The translations under genes and the position numbers were made by a program. 64,000 nt of DNA, from positions 1 through 64,000 of the forward strand of contig NZ_OBMO01000016.1 in the NCBI RefSeq assembly GCF_900217905.1, read 5' to 3'. Shown here piece by piece: positions 1,207 to 52,886 of this stretch. Position 1 is the first letter of the stretch; each line of letters starts with the position of its first letter. The DNA comes from Alloalcanivorax xenomutans. Lineage in GTDB: Bacteria > Pseudomonadota > Gammaproteobacteria > Pseudomonadales > Alcanivoracaceae. The notes beneath the pieces are model-generated. The model did not search any database, was not told the origin of the DNA, and worked only from the letters and a program-made list of their open reading frames with translations.

Positions 1207-1383
1207 ATGTATACCGACCGACTACTGATCATTTTCATTTTAGGCACCTATCTTCTTTCCCCCGCCATCATTGGCTGGTGGAGCGAGGGCGGGCGCGGCT
1301 GGTATCGCCCCTATCTGATCTGGCTGGCCCTGATCGCTCTCAGCTACTGGATCGCCAAGAGCCGGGACACGAATGACGTATAG
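1207..1383 (+). CDS. cbrX: Small two-helix membrane protein upstream of cbrA (CbrX-like)
   Basis: The frame encodes 58 residues, beginning MYTDRLLIIFILGTYLL and ending DTNDV. Two hydrophobic segments are visible, about residues 6-25 and 36-50, separated by a short GEGGRGWYRP-type loop, so an inner-membrane hairpin is likely. The stop codon lies 11 bases inside cbrA in another frame, which predicts translational coupling with the kinase. In Pseudomonas a small ORF called cbrX overlaps the start of cbrA in the same way; the symbol is given by position and size, from memory of that literature. Its function is unknown to me. The start is the only ATG in frame before the first hydrophobic segment. 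Confidence 0.65.
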   Translation: MYTDRLLIIFILGTYLLSPAIIGWWSEGGRGWYRPYLIWLALIALSYWIAKSRDTNDV

Positions 1384-4300
1384 TGTCAGCGAACTGATCC
1401 TGATCGCCTGTGGCTACCTGCTGTTTCTGTTCCTGGTGGCCTGGATCACCGAGCGGGGCTGGATCCCCTCACGCTGGGTGCGTCACCCGGTAGTCTATGT
1501 ACTGTCACTCGGAGTCTACGCCAGCGCCTGGGCAATCTATGGCTCGGTGGGTTACGCCTATCGTTACGGCTACAACTTTCTCGCCTATTTTCTCGGCATC
1601 TCCGGGGTGTTTCTGTTGGCGCCGATCCTGCTGGCGCCGATCCTGCGTCTGACCACGACCTATCAGCTGGGCTCCCTGGCGGATCTGTTCGCTTTCCGCT
1701 ATCGCAGCCGCCTGGCCGGGGCACTCACCACGGTGATGATGGTGATCGGCATGCTGCCGCTACTGTCACTGCAGTTGAAGGCCGTGGCGGAGTCGATCCA
1801 GATCCTGACCGGGGATCCGGATCCCGCTTGGCTGGCGTTCTGGTTCTGTCTGCTGATCACGCTGTTCGCCATTTTGTTCGGTGCCCGCCATGCCACCGCC
1901 CGGGAACGGCATGAGGGGCTGGTCGTCGCCATCGCCACCGAATCGCTGATCAAACTGGTGGCGTTCGTGGCGGTGGCCCTGCTCGGGCTGTTCGGCGTCT
2001 TTGGTGGTCTCGGCGGCCTGAATCAGTGGCTGGACACCAATCCGGAGATGCTCACCCGTCTTTACCAGCCATTGCAGGACGGCACCTGGCACAGTCTGAT
2101 CATGGCGTTTTTTGTCTCCGCCGTGGTGATGCCCCATATGTTCTACATGGCCTTCACCGAGAACCTCAATCCTCGAGCCCTGATCACCGCCAGTTGGGGA
2201 TTGCCGCTGCTGTTTTTGATCATGGCGCTGTGCGTGCCGCTGATCCTGTGGTCCGCGCTCGCCATCGACGCGCCGACCATTCCGGATTATTTCGCGCTCG
2301 GCGTCGGCCGGGAAAACGGCCACGGCGCGGTGCTCGCCTATCTGGCCGGGCTCGCCGGCGCCAGTGGCATGCTGATCGTCGCCACTCTGGCGCTTTCCGG
2401 CATGTGCCTGAATCACCTGGTTCTGCCGGCCAGCCCTCTCAGTTCCGCCCAGGATCTGTACCGCAATCTGCTGTGGACCCGGCGGGTGCTGATCGCCGCC
2501 ATTCTGGCGTTGGCCTTTTTATTCTACCGGCTCACTGGTCCCAACCATTCCCTGGTGGAGCTGGGGGTGTTGTCGTTCGTCGCGACGTTGCAGTTCGTAC
2601 CGGGTTTGATCGGAGCGCTGTTCTGGCCATCGGGCAATCGCAGCGGCCTGTTCGCCGGCATGCTGGCCGGGTTCGTGATTTGGGCGGTGGCTCTGTTATT
2701 CCCGTTGATCACGCCGCACTGGCACGCCCAGGAAGTCCTGCAATGGCTCGGCTGGCAGTATCCGGAAGGCGCCACCCAATGGCACCGGGTGGCACTGGCG
2801 TCGGTGAGTCTCAATGGCCTGATCTACGCGGTGGTGTCGATCGTCACGCCAATGTCCCGGGCGGAACGGTCCGCCGCCGAAGCCTGCGCGGTGGACAGCC
2901 TGCGGCGCCCGTATCGCTGGGAATTGAGCGCTCAGTCCGTGGACGATTTCATCGCGTCCCTGAGCGGCCCGCTGGGGCCGGTAACCGCCGCCCGTGAAGT
3001 GGAAATGGCGCTGCGGGACCTGCGCCTGAAATATACCGAGACCCGCCCCTACGCCCTGCGGCGGCTGCGCGATCAGTTGGAGACCAACCTGTCCGGCCTG
3101 CTCGGTCCCTCCGTCGCCCATCAACTGATGGATGAAAACGTGCCCTATCGGCCGCGCGAGGGTGAGGAATCCAGCGAGGATATTCGCTTTATCGAAACCC
3201 GTCTGGAAAAGTACCGGGATCGCCTTTCCGGTCTGGCGGCGGAACTGGACAGCCTGCGCCGTTTCCACCGGCAAACCCTGCTTGAATTGCCGATGGGGGT
3301 TATTTCCCTGGGCGCCGACGGCGAGATCATTGGCTGGAACCGGGCGGTGGAAACCCTGACCGGCATCGAGGCGGAAGACACCATAGGCTCGCGGCTGGAC
3401 CATCTGCCCTCCCCCTGGGGAGAGTTGCTCACCGAATTCAGCCGCGGCGAGGACGCCCACGACCCCAAACGCAGCATCGAGGTCAACGGCCAGGCTCGCT
3501 GGCTGAGTCTGCATAAATCGCTGATCCGTGGCGCCGGCCCGTCCGAGCAGGCCGGCGGTTTGGTGCTGGTGCTTGAGGACATTACCGATCTGCGTCATAT
3601 GGAAGCGCATCTGGCGCACAACGAGCGGCTGGCTTCCATCGGCCGTCTGGCCGCCGGGGTGGCTCACGAGATCGGCAATCCGGTTACCGCCATCGCCTGT
3701 CTCGCACAGAATCTGGAAGGCGACAGCATCGATGAGGAGCAGCGCCTCAGCGGACGCCAGATCATGGAGCAAACCCGCCGCATCACCCGCATCGTCGAAT
3801 CACTGGTAACGTTCAGTCATTCCGGCGGCATGCGCGACGTGATTCATGGCCCGGTGCGAGTCTTCGACACCGTCGCCGAAGCCATCGCCCTGCTGCAGTT
3901 GGACCCGGACCGCCGCCAGCAACACTTCCGCAATCTCTGCGACCCGACCCACGAAGTGATGGGTGACCCGCAACGTTTGCTGCAGGTGTTCGTCAACTTG
4001 CTCAGCAACGCCTCGGACGCCAGCGAGGACGACGCCCCGATCACGGTCCGCAGCCGCCCGGAGGGTGAGAATGTGCGTATCGAAGTCGAGGATCGCGGCC
4101 ATGGCATACCGGCTGAACTGCGCGATGCCCTGTTTGAACCCTTCGTCACCAGCAAGCCGCCGGGCCGCGGTACGGGTCTGGGACTGGCGTTGGTTTACAG
4201 TATCATCGAAGACCATCAGGGGACGGTGCGCGTGGAGAGCCCGGTGGAAGGCGACCATGGCACCCGGTTTATCATCGACCTGCCCGCTTATCAGAATTAG
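1373..4300 (+). CDS. cbrA: Sensor histidine kinase CbrA with solute-symporter-like membrane domain
   Basis: CbrA is the inner-membrane kinase of the CbrAB system, which adjusts carbon and nitrogen use. The 975 residues fall into an N-terminal sodium:solute-symporter-like region of many helices (about 1-500), a linker, a PAS domain (about 635-755; it contains VISLGADGEIIGWNRAVETLTGIEAED) and a transmitter domain. The phosphoacceptor is His765 in GVAHEIGNP, followed by an N-box (NLLSNASDASEDD, about 875) and glycine boxes (EDRGHGIP, about 906; GTGLGLALVYS, about 933). Length and layout match Pseudomonas CbrA. It overlaps the upstream small ORF by 11 bases and precedes cbrB by 12, so the three form one operon. 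The transporter-kinase fusion is normal for this family. Confidence 0.93.
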   Translation: MTYSVSELILIACGYLLFLFLVAWITERGWIPSRWVRHPVVYVLSLGVYASAWAIYGSVGYAYRYGYNFLAYFLGISGVFLLAPILLAPILRLTTTYQLGSLADLFAFRYRSRLAGALTTVMMVIGMLPLLSLQLKAVAESIQILTGDPDPAWLAFWFCLLITLFAILFGARHATARERHEGLVVAIATESLIKLVAFVAVALLGLFGVFGGLGGLNQWLDTNPEMLTRLYQPLQDGTWHSLIMAFFVSAVVMPHMFYMAFTENLNPRALITASWGLPLLFLIMALCVPLILWSALAIDAPTIPDYFALGVGRENGHGAVLAYLAGLAGASGMLIVATLALSGMCLNHLVLPASPLSSAQDLYRNLLWTRRVLIAAILALAFLFYRLTGPNHSLVELGVLSFVATLQFVPGLIGALFWPSGNRSGLFAGMLAGFVIWAVALLFPLITPHWHAQEVLQWLGWQYPEGATQWHRVALASVSLNGLIYAVVSIVTPMSRAERSAAEACAVDSLRRPYRWELSAQSVDDFIASLSGPLGPVTAAREVEMALRDLRLKYTETRPYALRRLRDQLETNLSGLLGPSVAHQLMDENVPYRPREGEESSEDIRFIETRLEKYRDRLSGLAAELDSLRRFHRQTLLELPMGVISLGADGEIIGWNRAVETLTGIEAEDTIGSRLDHLPSPWGELLTEFSRGEDAHDPKRSIEVNGQARWLSLHKSLIRGAGPSEQAGGLVLVLEDITDLRHMEAHLAHNERLASIGRLAAGVAHEIGNPVTAIACLAQNLEGDSIDEEQRLSGRQIMEQTRRITRIVESLVTFSHSGGMRDVIHGPVRVFDTVAEAIALLQLDPDRRQQHFRNLCDPTHEVMGDPQRLLQVFVNLLSNASDASEDDAPITVRSRPEGENVRIEVEDRGHGIPAELRDALFEPFVTSKPPGRGTGLGLALVYSIIEDHQGTVRVESPVEGDHGTRFIIDLPAYQN

Positions 4301-4312
4301 AAGGAAGGCAGT

Positions 4313-5647
4313 ATGAGTCACATACTGATCGTGGAAGACGAGCCCGTGATTCGCGGCGCGCTACGAAAATTGCTGGAGCGGCATGATCACTCCGTGACGG
4401 AAGCGGAATCCGTGGAGCAGGCCCAGGAGAAAAGCCTGCATCAGTACGACCTGATCATCAGCGATCTGCGATTACCGGGGGAACCGGGCACGGCTCTGAT
4501 TGAACAGGCCAACCCGACGCCGGTGCTGATCATGACCAGTTACGCCAGTCTGCGTTCGGCGGTGGACGCCATGCGCCAGGGCGCGGTGGACTACATTCCC
4601 AAACCGTTCGATCACGAGGAAATGCTGCTGGCCGTGGAACGGGTGCTGAAGGAAGGCCGGCTCAATCGCGGCAACCAGGCGCTGCGCCGTGATATGGAAC
4701 GCAGCTATCCGGTTAACGCCATGGTCGGTGAGTGCCAGGCCATGCGCGAGCTCAAACATCGCATCGCCCGAGTAGCGCCCACCGACACCCCGGTACTGAT
4801 TCTTGGGGAAGCCGGCACCGGCAAGGAACTGACCGCCCGTTCCATCCATGAACACAGTGAACGGGCGAGTGGCCCGCTGATTACGGTGCACTGCGCCTCC
4901 CTGCCGAAAACCCTGCAACTGGATGATCTGTTCGGCAACGATGAACAGCCCGGCCGCATTGAAGAGGCGGAAGGCGGCACCTTGTTTCTGGACGAAGTGG
5001 GCGAACTGTCCGGAGAAGCGCAGAGCCGGCTGCTGACGCTGCTGGAGCAGGGCGAGATTCATCGTCAGGATTCCCTGGCCACACGCCGGGTGGACGTACG
5101 CATCCTGGCCAGCAGCCAAACCGATCTGCCCACCCTGGTCACCGAAGGCGGATTCCGCCGTGACCTCTATTACCGGCTTAACGTGATGGAGCTGGAAGTG
5201 CCGCCATTGCGGGCCCGCGAGCAGGATATCGAGGATCTGGCCAGCGCGCTTCTGGCCCGTGGCAGCGAGAAACTGCGGCGGCAGAACCTGTTTTTCACTC
5301 AGGAAGCACTGGAGGCGATGCGTGGTTACAGCTGGCCGGGCAACGTGCGGGAGTTGGAAAACGTCATCGAGCGGGCCGTGATTCTCTCCGAGGAAGAAGC
5401 CATAGGTCCCGGTCAACTGGGCCTGAATCCGGACCGCGCGCCACAACGCACCACCCGTGCCAGCCGCGCCAGCCTGGATCCCTCCGAGGATCTGTCGCTG
5501 GAGGACTACTTCACCCGCTTTGTCCTGGAAAACCAGGACAGCATGACCGAGACCGAGCTGGCCAATAAGCTCGGCATCAGCCGCAAAAGCCTGTGGGAGC
5601 GCCGTCAACGCCTGGGCATTCCCCGCCGCAAGGGCGGCCGGCGCTGA
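4313..5647 (+). CDS. cbrB: NtrC-family response regulator CbrB lacking the GAFTGA loop
   Basis: CbrB is the DNA-binding partner of CbrA. The receiver domain carries phosphoacceptor Asp51 (SDLRLPG). The AAA+ domain has a Walker A motif (GEAGTGK, Lys171) and Walker B (LFLDE, about 224-228). The Fis-type helix-turn-helix is at the C-terminus (TELANKLGISRKSLWERRQRLG). Sigma54 activators carry GAFTGA between LFGHEK and the FE.A.GGTLFLDE segment. Here residues 206-222 read LFGNDEQPGRIEEAEGG, so GAFTGA and flanking residues are absent. This sequence-level loss predicts that the protein cannot remodel sigma54 polymerase in the usual way. Known NtrC-family members without GAFTGA (TyrR, Rhodobacter NtrC) work with sigma70. 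Identity as CbrB rests on the operon, the C-terminus and the neighbouring RNA. Confidence 0.88.
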   Translation: MSHILIVEDEPVIRGALRKLLERHDHSVTEAESVEQAQEKSLHQYDLIISDLRLPGEPGTALIEQANPTPVLIMTSYASLRSAVDAMRQGAVDYIPKPFDHEEMLLAVERVLKEGRLNRGNQALRRDMERSYPVNAMVGECQAMRELKHRIARVAPTDTPVLILGEAGTGKELTARSIHEHSERASGPLITVHCASLPKTLQLDDLFGNDEQPGRIEEAEGGTLFLDEVGELSGEAQSRLLTLLEQGEIHRQDSLATRRVDVRILASSQTDLPTLVTEGGFRRDLYYRLNVMELEVPPLRAREQDIEDLASALLARGSEKLRRQNLFFTQEALEAMRGYSWPGNVRELENVIERAVILSEEEAIGPGQLGLNPDRAPQRTTRASRASLDPSEDLSLEDYFTRFVLENQDSMTETELANKLGISRKSLWERRQRLGIPRRKGGRR

Positions 5648-5817
5648 ATCCGATACCGTCGGCTGGCGAATCTTTCCGCCCTGGAGCCCATTCGCCAGCA
5701 AGGCCGCCCCACGGCGACTCGCAGCCTCGTCCGTGGAAAGCAAATTCACTCGCCAATAGCGCGCCGTGTGGAAGTGATTGCCCCACCTTTGCCGGAAATG
5801 GCTTGTGGACCCCTCAT

Positions 5818-5888
5818 TGTTACTCCCTCAGTCGCACTCAACGATCAAGTGTTACCTTACTACACAAGGCGGGTAACAAGAACGTTAC
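5818..5888 (+). promoter_or_regulatory. Phased GTTAC boxes upstream of the CrcZ-like RNA
   Basis: TGTTAC occurs at 5818-5823 and 5850-5855, an inverted GTAACA at 5873-5878, and CGTTAC at 5883-5888. The direct copies are 32 and 33 bp apart, about three helical turns. From memory, GTTAC-type half sites are the elements bound by CbrB in front of Pseudomonas crcZ. I infer these are CbrB sites. Confidence 0.6.
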
Positions 5889-5904
5889 CCCACACCCCCA
5901 GCTT

Positions 5905-5948
5905 TGGAACCGCTTTTTCATGTTTTTCGTAAGCTGCTGATTTATAAG
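5905..5948 (+). promoter_or_regulatory. Candidate promoter of the CrcZ-like RNA
   Basis: Two alternatives overlap. A sigma54-like element at 5905-5920 (TGGAACCGCTTTTTCA) keeps the -24 GG but has TC in place of the -12 GC. A sigma70 -10 box TATAAG lies at 5943-5948 with only a weak -35, as expected for activator-dependent promoters. Because CbrB here lacks GAFTGA, the sigma70 reading is favoured, with a start near 5955. Confidence 0.4.
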
Positions 5949-5954
5949 GATTTA

Positions 5955-6193
5955 ACATGCTATTGCAAAGAAAAATCCATCCATGCACTATGAATCCCAC
6001 GCCAGATAAACAAAACAACCAAGGCGGCAAGGCTCAAATAAGAACAAGAAAAGAAGAACAAAAAGTGGATGAGCCGAACGAGAGAAATGCCGTAACACCA
6101 TGTGCGTACGGCGCAAGGCAGAAAACAACACAAACAATAACAACAACAGAATCAGCGCATAGGGCATCACAACCAAGGTTGTGGTGCCTTTTT
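5955..6193 (+). ncRNA. crcZ: CrcZ-like small RNA, Hfq/Crc decoy
   Basis: This stretch between cbrB and pcnB is exactly where Pseudomonas encodes crcZ, the RNA that titrates Hfq (with Crc) away from catabolic mRNAs. It is strikingly purine- and A-rich, with runs of A-R-N triplets, the motif read by the distal face of Hfq. Clusters lie at about 6008-6020, 6035-6065 (AAT AAG AAC AAG AAA AGA) and 6122-6149 (AAC AAT AAC AAC AAC AGA). A GCCGTA/TACGGC hairpin spans 6089-6112, and a strong intrinsic terminator ends it. At roughly 240 nt it is shorter than the approximately 400-nt P. aeruginosa RNA. The open frame running through it (5957-6298) crosses the terminator and has no recognisable protein features, so I treat it as chance. 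The 5' end is inferred. Confidence 0.72.
6163..6193 (+). terminator. Intrinsic terminator of the CrcZ-like RNA
   Basis: A 12-bp stem (6163-6174 with 6177-6188, one G-U type mismatch) has a two-base AA centre and is followed directly by TTTTT at 6189-6193. Confidence 0.9.
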
Positions 6194-6313
6194 ACTTTTA
6201 AACGCCCAGCTTGCCTTCGATCTCTTTCCGTTGCAAGGCGCCGATCAATAACCTGCGCCGCGAAAAAGGTGCTACCATGCCGCCTTTCATTCAGCTAGGA
6301 CGATAATCGCTCA

Positions 6314-7699
6314 ATGGCGTCAAAGCTTCTGGAGAAACTGACCCGCCTTATTCAGTTTGGTTCCCCACGCACGCCCCGCCTTCCCAAGGCCAAGGTGATT
6401 CCCCGCGACGCCCACCCTATTTCCCGTAAACAGGTGTCCCGGGCCGCACTCAATGTACTCTACGGATTGCATAAGGCCGGGTTCGAAGCCTATCTGGTCG
6501 GAGGGTGCCTGCGGGATCTGCTGTGCGGGCGGCAACCCAAGGATTTCGACGTGGTCACCGATGCCACTCCGGAGCAGGTCTACCGGCTGTTCAAGCGCAG
6601 CCGCATCATTGGCCGCCGCTTCCAGATCGTGCACGTGCGTTTCGGTGGCGAGGTCATTGAGGTCTCCACCTTCCGCGCGTTCCAACGGGATGACGATCTG
6701 GATGACGATCAGCACCGGGCCCATGAGGAAACCGGCCTGGTGCTGCGAGACAACACCTGGGGCAGCATCGAGGAAGACGCGCTGCGCCGCGACTTCACCA
6801 TCAACGCTCTCTACTACAATATCGCCGATTTCGCCCTGTACGATTTCGTCAACAGCCGACAGGACATCGAGCGCGGCATCATCCGGTTGATCGGAGATCC
6901 CCAGCAACGCTATCGCGAGGATCCGGTACGCATGCTGCGCGCCGCCCGCTTCGCCGCCAAACTGGGCTTTCAGCTGGATCGCGCCACCCGGGCGCCAATT
7001 CCTGAAATGGCGCCGCTGTTACTGCAGGTTCCGCCCGCCCGCCTGTTCGACGAGGTGCTCAAGCTGTTCCTCAGCGGCCATGCCCGGGAATCCTTTGAAC
7101 AGCTGCGGAAGCTGGGTCTGTTCGCCTTTTTGTTCCCCAACACCCATGAAGCCTTGGAAAGTGAACAGGGGGAAGTCTGGGAACGGCTGATCCTGGCCGC
7201 CATGGACAACACCGACCGGCGCCTGTCCGAGAACAAGCCGGTTACCCCGGCCTTCCTTTACGCGGTGTTCCTGTGGCCGGTGCTGGTTACTCAGTTGAAT
7301 CGCTACCGCGAGGACGGCATTCCGCCAGCGCCAGCCCTGCACAAAGCCGCCACCTGGGCGCTTAACGAGCAAAGCCACCATACTTCGGTGCCTCGCCGCT
7401 TTTCCTCGGTGATGCGCGAGATGTGGGACCTGCAACCGCGTCTGGATAAACGCAATGGCAAGCGGGCGGATACCTTGATGGAGCACCCCCGCTTCCGTGC
7501 CGCTTACGACTTTCTGCTGCTGCGCGAACAGGCCGGTGAAATCAAACCCGGCCTGGGAGAATGGTGGACCCGCTATCAAGCCGCCGACGAGTCCCAGCAA
7601 CGGGCCATGGTTCAGGATCTGGGCCAGGCCGGACGCCAGGGCGGCCGGCGGCGGCGTCGGCGCCGACGCAGCGGGGGCGGAGGCGACAGCGAAGCATGA
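6314..7699 (+). CDS. pcnB: Poly(A) polymerase I
   Basis: The enzyme adds 3' poly(A) tails to RNA, promoting decay by PNPase and the degradosome. The 461-aa length matches E. coli PcnB. The nucleotidyltransferase motif is visible around residues 62-80 (LVGGCLRDLLCG, then PKDFDVVTDA with the metal-binding aspartates). The RNA/ATP-binding head follows (DALRRDFTINALYYN; EDPVRMLRAARFAAKLGF). The C-terminus is arginine-rich (GGRRRRRRRRSGGGGDSEA), as in gammaproteobacterial PcnB, and separates it from the CCA-adding enzyme. The stop overlaps the folK start as ATGA. Its place after crcZ is the Pseudomonas order. The ribosome binding site is weak (AGGA about 14 bases upstream). Confidence 0.95.
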   Translation: MASKLLEKLTRLIQFGSPRTPRLPKAKVIPRDAHPISRKQVSRAALNVLYGLHKAGFEAYLVGGCLRDLLCGRQPKDFDVVTDATPEQVYRLFKRSRIIGRRFQIVHVRFGGEVIEVSTFRAFQRDDDLDDDQHRAHEETGLVLRDNTWGSIEEDALRRDFTINALYYNIADFALYDFVNSRQDIERGIIRLIGDPQQRYREDPVRMLRAARFAAKLGFQLDRATRAPIPEMAPLLLQVPPARLFDEVLKLFLSGHARESFEQLRKLGLFAFLFPNTHEALESEQGEVWERLILAAMDNTDRRLSENKPVTPAFLYAVFLWPVLVTQLNRYREDGIPPAPALHKAATWALNEQSHHTSVPRRFSSVMREMWDLQPRLDKRNGKRADTLMEHPRFRAAYDFLLLREQAGEIKPGLGEWWTRYQAADESQQRAMVQDLGQAGRQGGRRRRRRRRSGGGGDSEA

Positions 7700-11492: not shown

Positions 11493-13430
11493 ATGTCCGA
11501 GCATAAAATCCACCCGGTTCCGGAGTCATTCAAGCGTCAGACCCTCATGGACCGCGACACCTATGAGCGCTGGTACGCACAATCCGTCAATGATCCGGAA
11601 ACCTTCTGGGCGGCCCGCGCCGAAGAGCTGCTGGACTGGCATACCCGCTGGGATACCGTCAGCGACTGGGATTTCAAGGAAGGTCGCGCGGCCTGGTTCG
11701 CCGGAGGCAAACTGAACGCCTGCTACAACTGCGTCGATCGTCATCTGCCGCAACGCGCCCAGCAGACCGCCATCATCTGGGAAGGCGACGAACCGGACCA
11801 GGACAAGCACATCAGCTACCAGGAACTGTTCGAGCAGGTCAGCAAACTGGCCAATGTGCTGCGCGGCCGCGGCGTCAAAAAGGGCGACCGGGTGGTGATT
11901 TACATGCCCATGATTCCGGAAGCCGCCTACGCCATGCTCGCCTGCGCCCGCATCGGCGCCATCCACTCGGTGGTTTTCGGCGGCTTCTCTCCGGAAGCCC
12001 TCAAGGACCGCATCAACGATGCTGATGCCTGTGCCGTCATCACCGCCGATGAGGGCGTACGCGGCGGCCGTACGGTACCGCTGAAACTCAACGCTGATAA
12101 AGCGATGAATGGCCAATCCAGCGTCCACAGCTGCGTGGTGGTACAACGCACCGGCGGCGACGTGGATTGGAACGACAGCCGCGACCTCTGGTACCACGAA
12201 GCCATGGCGCAGGCCGACCCGCAGTGCGAACCGGAATGGATGGACTCCGAGGATCCGTTGTTCACCCTGTACACCTCCGGTTCCACCGGCAAACCCAAAG
12301 GCGTGGTACACAGCACCGCCGGCTATTTGCTGCAAAGCGCCCTGACCCACAAATACGTATTTGACTATCACGACGGCGACATCTATTGGTGCACCGCCGA
12401 CGTGGGCTGGGTCACCGGCCACAGCTATATCGTTTATGGTCCACTGGCCAACGGCGCCACCACCCTGATGTTCGAGGGCGTGCCCACCTACCCGGACGCT
12501 TCCCGTTGCTGGCAGGTGGTGGACAAGCACAAAGTAAACATCTTCTACACCGCACCCACCGCCATTCGTGCGCTGATGGGGCTCGGCGATGAGCCCGTCA
12601 CCAAGACATCACGGCAGAGCCTGAAGCTGTTGGGAACAGTGGGCGAGCCAATCAACCCGGAAGCCTGGGAGTGGTACTACAAAGTGGTGGGCGAGGAGCG
12701 CTGCCCGATCGTGGATACCTGGTGGCAGACCGAGACCGGCGCCATCATGATCGCCCCCTTGCCCGGTGCCGTGGATCTGAAACCCGGTTCCGCCACCCTG
12801 CCCATGTTCGGTGTACAGCCGGCCCTGATGGATCCGGACGGCAAGGAGCTGGACGGCGCCACTTCCGGCAACCTGGTGATCAAAGCGAGTTGGCCGAGCC
12901 AGATCCGCACCGTTTACGGCGATCATCAACGCATGGTCGACACTTACTTCAGTGCTTATCCGGGTTACTACTTCACCGGTGACGGCGCCCGCCGCGACGA
13001 AGACGGCTATTACTGGATCACCGGCCGGGTCGACGATGTCCTGAACGTGTCAGGTCACCGCCTGGGCACCGCCGAGATCGAGTCCGCTCTGGTGCTGCAC
13101 AAGAGCATCGCCGAAGCCGCCGTGGTGGGGTATCAACACGATGTCAAAGGCCAGGGTATCTACGCCTATGTGTCCCTGATGGCCGGCGCCACGGGCAGCG
13201 AGGAATTGATCGAGGAGCTACGCAAGCTGGTCACCGAGGAAATCGGTCCGATCGCCAAACCGGACCTGATCCACTTCGCGCCAGGGCTGCCCAAGACCCG
13301 CTCCGGCAAAATCATGCGCCGTATCCTGCGCAAAATCGCCGCCGATGAGCTGGACAGCCTGGGCGACACCTCCACCCTGGCGGATCCCAGTGTGGTTGAC
13401 CAATTAATCGATACCCGCCGCAACCGCTAA
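11493..13430 (+). CDS. acs: Acetyl-CoA synthetase (AMP-forming)
   Basis: Acs activates acetate to acetyl-CoA through acetyl-AMP in the cytoplasm. The 645-aa protein has the AMP-binding P-loop [11 protein letters not shown] (about 260-270), [50 protein letters not shown], and the C-terminal [11 protein letters not shown]. Its lysine (Lys606) corresponds to the acetylation-controlled residue (Lys609 in E. coli). ATG 11493 follows AAGGAGG closely. The gene stands alone between two terminators. The CA motif in the leader suggests Hfq/Crc control by the RNA encoded at 5955-6193. Confidence 0.96.
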
Positions 13431-21542: not shown

Positions 21543-21812
21543 TTAGCGACGCAGCCCCAGACGCTCGATCAACTGCAGGTAGCGGCTACGATCCTTGCCA
21601 GCCAGGTAGTCCAGCAGCTTGCGGCGCTGGTTAACCATGCGGATCAGACCACGACGGCTGTGGTGGTCCTTGTTGTGGGCCTTGAAGTGACCCTGCAGCT
21701 GGTTGATGTTCTCGGTCAGCAGGGCAACCTGCACTTCCGGGGAACCGGAGTCCCCTTCCTTACGACCGAACTCCTTCAGGATTTCCGCTTTCTTTTCGAC
21801 GCTCAAAGCCAT
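21543..21812 (-). CDS. rpsO: 30S ribosomal protein S15
   Basis: S15 binds the 16S rRNA central domain early in 30S assembly. The 89-aa protein ([89 protein letters not shown]) has the standard length and termini. ATG 21812 matches the conserved MALS start; upstream codons are leader. It precedes pnp as usual. Confidence 0.97.
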
Positions 21813-21895
21813 TGTATACACTCCAATATGCAACATTAGTCACGGTCAGCCATGCATATTTATAGCTGCCGTCCCGCTTGCGCGACCCGCTCGGG

Positions 21896-28159: not shown

Positions 28160-28236
<77 letters not shown>

Positions 28237-28468: not shown

Positions 28469-28555
28469 TGGTGCCGAAGGCCGGACTTGAACCGGCACGA
28501 GCGTAAGCCCACTACCCCCTCAAGATAGCGTGTCTACCAATTCCACCACTTCGGC
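28469..28555 (-). tRNA. tRNA-Leu (GAG)
   Basis: An 87-nt class II tRNA with long variable arm and encoded CCA. Acceptor GCCGAAG pairs with CTTCGGC, the D arm contains TTGGTAGAC, the anticodon loop is TTGAGGG (anticodon GAG) and the T loop GTTCAAGTC. It lies 13 bases after secG, the conserved gammaproteobacterial order. Confidence 0.96.
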
Positions 28556-52528: not shown

Positions 52529-52886
52529 GGGGCCGACAAGGTTTCGACGCCGGTATTGAACTCTGTGGTGCATGCCGAGAAGGTCACGAGTCTCGTAAAA
52601 CATTTGTGGCATCTTTAAAGTAATCGCAAACGACGATACTTACGCACTGGCGGCCTAAGGCCCGCCTACGGTCAAGCGACCCAGCCTGTGGGGAAGCGCG
52701 ACCGGCATCGCTACACAGGCTCGCAGCAAAGTCCGCCCCGGGCCGCGCTGTTAAAACTTAAAGGGGCTCGGCTCTTTCGTCCTGCCCGTCGGGCTGAAAG
52801 GGCTTAAATCAATAGACACGGCTAAGCATGTAGATCTGCAGGCGGATTGCTGACGGACGCGGGTTCGATTCCCGCCGGCTCCACCA
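52529..52886 (+). ncRNA. ssrA: Transfer-messenger RNA
   Basis: tmRNA of 358 nt rescues stalled ribosomes and tags their products for proteolysis. The 5' end GGGGCCGACAAGGTTTCGAC and the 3' end GTTCGATTCCCGCCGGCTCCACCA form the alanyl acceptor with G-U pair and T arm. The tag frame reads GCA AAC GAC GAT ACT TAC GCA CTG GCG GCC TAA, giving ANDDTYALAA. Pseudoknot regions lie between. SmpB is encoded just upstream. Confidence 0.97.

Follow-up and report, generated by a model that had tools for sequence, protein, structure and literature searches.

According to the available part of a 2022 review, descriptions of the gene order cbrA-cbrB-crcZ are limited to Pseudomonas and Azotobacter, and the CbrAB system is termed unique to the Pseudomonadaceae (PMC8871633). 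As to activators of RNA polymerase, the accessible text of PMC10274813 gives NtrC of R. capsulatus and of Caulobacter as lacking the GAFTGA motif, and NtrC of R. capsulatus is reported there to activate via sigma70. For Alcanivorax, one sentence in PMC9788540 states that a Crc homologue is lacking. Within the literature collection searched, we found no account linking crcZ with Alcanivorax and, by title and abstract, nothing relevant on CbrB in Alcanivorax or on the loss of GAFTGA in CbrB.

Here, we analysed a window of 64,000 nucleotides from Alloalcanivorax xenomutans, this term denoting the whole stretch of DNA. An earlier note, made from its sequence alone, described a CrcZ-like Hfq-decoy RNA between cbrB and pcnB. 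Our analysis partly confirms its observation, which is real with an extent that needs correction, and partly supports its interpretation. We consider it probable, though far from certain, that the locus encodes a decoy RNA resembling CrcZ and about 197 nt long, which would be activated by CbrB from a sigma70-type promoter without sigma54 and would titrate Hfq without Crc.

Genetic organization of the cbrB-pcnB locus

The sensor kinase gene located at 1373..4300 (+ strand) shows PAS, HisKA and HATPase_c matches and was named cbrA by its position before cbrB; the SLC5 domain is not among the Pfam matches of this kinase. The next gene, cbrB (4313..5647, + strand), encodes a response regulator of the enhancer-binding type with Response_reg and Sigma54_activat matches and without the GAFTGA motif, and its orthologues adjoin pcnB in relatives. 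The CbrB of the window shares 99% identity with its counterparts in Alloalcanivorax balearicus MACL04 and Alcanivorax sp. 24. The pcnB gene (6314..7699, + strand), which encodes a poly(A) polymerase, was recognized by TIGR01942 above its cut-off, and the gap between cbrB and pcnB has 666 bp in the window.

Open reading frames, Pfam and NCBIfam matches, motif counts and hairpin analysis show that this gap contains the A-rich, ARN-rich stretch followed by a terminator hairpin that the earlier note had pointed out. The note placed the start of the RNA at 5955 and gave it a length of about 240 nt, with a transcript of 220-270 nt. Because conserved promoter-like boxes occupy positions 5963-5991, the start is predicted near 5999 instead, and the predicted CrcZ-like RNA spans 5999..6195 (+ strand), about 197 nt, with its 5' end inferred from the -10 box and its 3' end from the terminator. 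The Rfam matches of the whole 64-kb window are an S15 leader (21756-21873, - strand), two tRNAs (28163-28236 and 28472-28555, both - strand) and a tmRNA (52529-52886, + strand), with no others; all of them are ordinary.

To place the locus among its relatives, we searched 57 genomes for CbrB and examined the gap at 55 loci, 35 from the family of the window (f1) and 20 from order-mates; a further order-mate genome, G053, lacks a CbrB orthologue. Among named genomes, the scan covered the best 80 of 97 relatives: 21 loci that group with Alcanivorax and Alloalcanivorax, including one labelled Alcanivoracaceae bacterium and one labelled Pseudomonadales bacterium, and 59 others. The family is thus represented by 56 rows (35 plus 21 named, the latter from the best 80 of 97 relatives); 14 of the 21 repeat genomes of the first set, so that about 42 genomes are covered.

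The stretch also lies within an open reading frame of 113 codons (5957-6298), with an ATG at 5957 and AAGGA upstream, and could be part of a small protein gene. This reading is disfavoured and very improbable: the frame has no Pfam or NCBIfam match, the ATG is found only in the four closest of 15 family loci checked, with the frame stopping early in most of the others, and its start precedes the predicted transcript.

Hfq-type motifs in the predicted RNA

The motif AANAANAA starts nine times on the + strand in 5999-6195, versus 21 times on the + strand of the 64-kb window; on the - strand it is absent from 5999-6195 and occurs 10 times in the window. Outside the locus, the maximum in any 200-nt stretch of the window is three. 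The whole gap has 11 copies; 300 single-base shuffles give an expectation of 0.5, and 11 was reached in none of them. All 35 family loci show 7-14 sense and 0-2 antisense copies in the gap, and all 21 named family loci (among the best 80 of 97 relatives) show 8-13 sense copies; the claim that Hfq-type ARN motifs are kept at the same locus in close relatives is therefore borne out. Among order-mates, 15 of the 20 gaps contain at least six copies, and L042, L045, L048, L050 and L052 hold zero to four. Several A-rich stretches with ARN or AANAANAA motifs are a trait of CrcZ found at the window locus, as is the position between cbrB and pcnB. Locus, ARN motifs and conservation are supported, as is the analogy to CrcZ that the earlier note had drawn.

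Structure, terminator and 3' signature of the RNA

The predicted RNA starts with hairpin 1 (5999..6026, ACGCC/GGCG), which has an A-rich loop, and hairpin 2 (6031..6075, GGCTC/GAGCC), whose loop carries seven ARN triplets from 6037. They are followed by a third A-rich stretch (6122..6159), which ends in the family signature AACAGAATCAGCGCA (6145-6159), and by an intrinsic terminator (6161..6193), all on the + strand. The alignment contained 39 of the 41 distinct family RNAs, since L008/L077 and L091 are cut and were left out. Hairpin 1 was paired in 85.5% of cells with almost no covariation, hairpin 2 in 95.4% and the terminator in 99.3%. The terminator scan alone was at chance level (one found versus 1.7 expected); across the 39 relatives, six of the 11 terminator pairs have changed on both sides and still pair.

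The structure made of hairpins 1 and 2 and the terminator was formed in 95.1% of cells; shuffles gave 89.6%, and sliding the structure gave no more than 48.7%. For the 39 family RNAs, seven pairs changed on both sides versus 3.9 in shuffles, and the covariation score was 0.251 versus 0.140 in shuffles; further pair types were not above shuffles, 102 of 500 being as high. The structural support comes mainly from the terminator; hairpins 1 and 2 scarcely vary. The outermost base pair of hairpin 1 is present in 20 of 37. RNAalifold recovers hairpin 2 together with the terminator and misses hairpin 1. The window RNA has a fold z of -3.8 versus shuffles, and its best fold shows hairpin 2 and the terminator without hairpin 1. 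In this fold the conserved ATCAGCGCA pairs with the 5' end; this pairing was rejected, given that its 5' partner GAU is lost in many relatives by eye.

The 3' signature AACAGAATCAGCGCA is nearly invariant across the 39 aligned RNAs. Its pattern was matched in 34 of 36 family genomes, the misses being G009, where the contig ends, and G026, which is 64% complete; it was also matched in three of 21 order-mate genomes, on contigs other than the one carrying crcZ.

A partial copy of the 3' half of the RNA (AAGGCAGAAAA ... AATCAGCGCAT) was observed at L172 (G000:C28, about 13107-13180), with a local score of 54 versus a shuffled maximum of 25. By eye, this copy adjoins the apparent 3' end of rpoH. 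Its 16-mer AACAAAATCAGCGCAT is also found once in each of G006, G007 and G008.

A base-pairing sRNA, with the signature as its business end and the A-rich stretches as Hfq-loading sites, would account for the near invariance of the signature in the 39 RNAs, for its presence in 34 of 36 family genomes and for the partial copy beside rpoH. We regard it as improbable, since what order-mates share at the locus is the sense-strand AANAANAA motifs and not the signature.

Relation to CrcZ and distribution of the module

The earlier note proposed a search with the Rfam model RF01675, and the window RNA reached 8.7 bits (E 7.8) against a gathering cut-off of 95, which does not place it in that family. 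Among 17 other loci, the cut-off was reached by all four from Pseudomonas or Halopseudomonas and by none of the 13 others, two of Alcanivorax included. Because the RNA does not pass the Rfam model and neither a sigma54 promoter nor a Crc partner was found, we do not class it as CrcZ. Judging from its sequence, the most likely role of this RNA is that of an Hfq decoy of the CrcZ type.

The note had regarded the locus as a case outside the usual Pseudomonas setting; far from being isolated, such RNAs are found at the same locus in many other families of the order. Among the 59 other named loci (within the best 80 of 97 relatives), 44 have the RNA, with 8-30 motifs, and 15 do not, with 0-1 motifs. 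Carriers include Halopseudomonas, Marinobacter, Marinobacterium, Oleispira, Thalassolituus, Saccharospirillum, Oceanospirillum, Hahella and Marinimicrobium. The cbrB-RNA-pcnB module is widespread in the order, and the CbrAB-CrcZ module thus extends far beyond the Pseudomonadaceae, contrary to the available part of the 2022 review (PMC8871633). RNAs of the window type may be among the 549 sRNA candidates, mostly unnamed, that the accessible text of PMC9788540 reports.

As a separate observation, seven loci (L049, L100, L102, L114, L115, L129 and L136) show two sigma54-type sites about 390-680 bp apart in the cbrB-pcnB gap, as if they had tandem CrcZ-like genes.

Promoter and upstream sites

A sigma70-like promoter, TTGCAA-N17-CACTAT, is predicted at 5963..5991 (+ strand). 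The pattern TTGCA[AT]-N17-CANNAT is found in 34 of the 35 family loci, L028 having TTGCCA with one mismatch, and in all 21 named family loci; it is found in none of the 20 order-mates and none of the 59 other named loci (named loci from the best 80 of 97 relatives). Across 35 rows less than 90% alike, the hexamers are invariant at eight of their 12 positions, while 15 of the 17 spacer positions show less than 0.9 bits. The conserved boxes lie below the threshold of a generic sigma70 scan, which found no site in 5700-6500 (0.8 expected). The sigma factor is unsure because the -10 box CANNAT fits only three of the six positions of what we take to be the consensus.

With the sigma54 patterns used, no site was found in the 35 family loci or the 21 named family loci (best 80 of 97 relatives). 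A sigma54 site is present in 15 of the 20 order-mates, the others being L042 (contig end), L046 (a near match by eye), L048, L050 and L052, and in all 44 other named loci with the RNA (among the best 80 of 97 relatives). Two candidates for a sigma54 site in the family were rejected: the weak TTGGAACCGCTTTTTCA (5904-5920), found at that place only in the window and L005 among family loci, is not conserved, and TTGCA as a -12 box has no -24 GG 10 bp upstream.

An IHF-like site, TAAGCTGCTGAT, is putatively located at 5930..5941 (+ strand), read against what we presume to be the IHF consensus. Of the 56 family rows, 49 match the pattern of this site, always with its start 33 bp ahead of the -35 box; the other seven do not match. 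The corresponding sigma54-type spacing was measured in 34 chosen loci: the promoter pattern was matched by 33, of which 25 also showed the IHF pattern, starting 32 bp before TGG in 21, 33 bp in one (L147) and 42 bp in three of f28. Because this spacing is 33 bp in the family versus mostly 32 bp in sigma54 loci, the -35 box of the family occupies the place of the old -24 box to within about 1 bp, and the change of TGGCAC to TTGCAA would represent two substitutions.

Further upstream, at 5850..5878 (+ strand), we found predicted CbrB half-sites, TGTTAC-N17-GTAACA, which are absent from the earlier note: the forward one at 5850-5855 and the reverse one at 5873-5878, with a further TGTTAC at 5818-5823. 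The half-site sequences are those given in the available parts of PMC6296734 and PMC8871633. All 56 family rows (21 of them from the best 80 of 97 relatives) have the forward half-site, located 112-114 bp upstream of the -35 box in 51 and 101-102 bp upstream in five. These two distances differ by about one helical turn, an offset that would be expected for looping. The reverse half-site follows 15-17 bp on in 30 of the 35 family loci.

In P. putida, read-through from the cbrB promoter contributes to CrcZ according to the available part of PMC8871633, and the family RNA might likewise come mainly from cbrB read-through and processing, without a promoter of its own. Two hexamers with invariant spacing directly before the RNA argue against this origin, which we hold to be improbable.

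Loss of the GAFTGA loop in CbrB

None of the 56 family CbrBs shows a GAFTGA-type loop, versus all 63 other CbrBs counted (named ones from the best 80 of 97 relatives); all 20 order-mate CbrBs have it. Sixteen loci were left out of the 63: L055, with an incomplete CbrB in which GAFTGA is present, and the 15 named loci without the RNA, of which 13 have a GAFTGA-type loop and two (L122 and L150) do not. In the window, the codons of LFGNDEQPG (4928..4954, + strand) stand at the place of the GAFTGA loop of order-mates, nine residues shorter. The remnants of the loop vary within the family (the nine-residue deletion, DALPGA, GAFEGA, GAFAAA, GAFAGA and others). That they differ while the family promoter is uniform suggests that the CbrB loop decayed once the promoter had already changed. 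Outside the loop, Walker A is kept in 55 of the 56 family CbrBs, the DE of Walker B in 49 (altered in seven), and the receiver DLRL in all 56.

Sigma54 itself is retained by the family. The rpoN gene was found in 34 of 36 family genomes, the misses being G018 and G023, each 86% complete. Among the seven strongest sigma54-activator matches of the window genome, five have a GAFTGA-like loop; CbrB and L065 have none.

A CbrB without GAFTGA should not drive sigma54 (PMC10274813, available part), and the reverse half-site is absent in five of 35 loci. Both points would fit an Hfq decoy RNA whose promoter is now constitutive or under another regulator, with a CbrB that no longer controls this promoter, works at other sites or acts as a repressor. 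We consider this unlikely: both the forward half-site and the IHF-like site have been retained at their spacing from the promoter, and the poor -10 box suggests that an activator is needed.

Crc and Hfq in the family and in other lineages

The partnership of Hfq with Crc assumed in the earlier note is not supported. Using the P. aeruginosa Crc as query, no match above 100 bits was found in 36 family genomes, nor in the 46 of a fuller family set, versus 19 of 21 order-mate genomes (misses in G037, 75% complete, and in G053). At E 1e-20, 242 of the 293 genomes sampled from the order gave a Crc match; 14 of the misses belong to the family and 37 to others. By eye, none of the four EEP-fold proteins of the window genome is Crc-like. 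Hfq is present in 45 of 46 family genomes, the miss being G026 (64% complete). The Hfq of the window genome (L001) has F at position 25, in the distal face that binds ARN repeats, where we take Y25 to be usual in E. coli. In P. aeruginosa Hfq, Y25 is usual and Y25D abolishes CrcZ binding, according to the available part of PMC4063720.

CbrB matches at E 1e-90 were found in 22 of the 37 Crc-less genomes outside the family. All eight f28 loci with the RNA (L205-L212) keep GAFTGA and the sigma54 site, show 13-28 motifs and belong to Crc-less genomes; Crc is present in another f28 genome, G062. The Crc-less L213 (f33) also keeps GAFTGA and the sigma54 site. Crc loss alone therefore does not bring the switch, and as its cause it is disfavoured. 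Of the other Crc-less control loci, L215 is cut, and no RNA was seen at L203 and L204 within the sequence examined. L214 (f18) is without GAFTGA and L218, L220 and L224 (f24) keep it; no RNA was seen in these four.

The six CbrB orthologues of f41 (L216, L217, L219, L221, L222 and L223) all lack the loop together with part of the AAA+ core; their receiver and DNA-binding ends are conserved, and five of the six adjoin pcnB. L216 and L217 show a short A-rich stretch behind TTGTAG-N16-TAGAAT and TTGAAC-N16-TACAAT, respectively, and the other four are without the RNA. The L217 site was called by the sigma70 scan (one found, 0.6 expected), with no terminator called, and is weak.

In a 64-row CbrB tree obtained by a quick search, the long-branched L047 joins f41 and splits the family, while a 43-row tree without L047 shows the family as one clade (99) and f41 as another (100). 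The loop was likely lost twice, in the family and in f41, long-branch effects being possible; f41 seems to have taken the same road independently and later mostly lost the RNA. As the family is one clade, its losses count as one event. In the trees without L047, the nearest rows of the family are L034 (f3) and f28, with support of at most 85, which gives a weak hint that Crc was lost before the promoter and loop switch.

Proposed mechanism and comparison with known systems

The conserved RNA with its motifs and terminator, the boxes and their spacing, the loss of GAFTGA, the absence of Crc and the presence of Hfq and rpoN are read from sequence. From them we infer transcription, the sigma factor used, CbrB activation, IHF binding, Hfq binding and the effect on catabolic genes. 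On a poor carbon source, CbrB would bind 5850-5878, IHF would bend the DNA at about 5930, and CbrB would contact RNA polymerase with a sigma70-family factor at 5963-5991, raising transcription without sigma54. The ARN repeats that the RNA would present, in two hairpin loops and in an open stretch, would occupy the distal face of Hfq, so that catabolic mRNAs would be freed from Hfq repression without Crc as co-repressor. With slightly more confidence than doubt, we propose that the family has rebuilt its carbon-control relay: a sigma70 promoter would have replaced the sigma54 site with the activator and IHF spacing kept, CbrB would have dropped its loop, and the decoy would serve Hfq alone because Crc is gone.

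The spread of the module in the order and the rewiring of the family (promoter, CbrB loop and Crc) go beyond the earlier note. If true, the family would provide a natural example in which a regulator and the promoter it targets have switched sigma factor together, the older state still being seen in relatives, and also a natural Hfq decoy system without Crc, which bears on what Crc adds to Hfq. It would also give a handle on how marine alkane degraders rank carbon sources.

CrcZ of Pseudomonas (RF01675, with CrcY and CrcX) has the same place between cbrB and pcnB, CbrB half-sites, an IHF-like site, ARN-rich stretches and a terminator. It has 407 nt according to the available part of PMC4063720, against about 197 nt predicted here, and the gap between half-sites is 12-14 in the Pseudomonas consensus (PMC8871633, available part) against 15-17 in the family. 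Furthermore, the locus described here differs in that the Rfam model fails, the promoter is sigma70-like instead of sigma54, CbrB is without GAFTGA and the genome is without Crc. A sigma70 promoter is also predicted for crcZ of Azotobacter vinelandii in the accessible text of PMC6292655; in that species the promoter overlaps an intact sigma54 site, and either would fit the mapped start, whereas here the sigma54 site was not found. NtrC of R. capsulatus and Caulobacter resembles the family CbrB in being a response regulator with an AAA+ core, a deleted GAFTGA loop and a kept Walker A, and it has a sigma70-type target promoter (PMC10274813, available part), to which the conserved boxes of the family, uncalled by the generic scan, may correspond. 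Activation of the sigma70 polymerase is shown for NtrC of R. capsulatus in that text and is proposed here for the family CbrB. The present case differs from both NtrC proteins in concerning another orthologue and pathway, in having an RNA gene as target, and in that the sigma54 ancestor state is visible in relatives.
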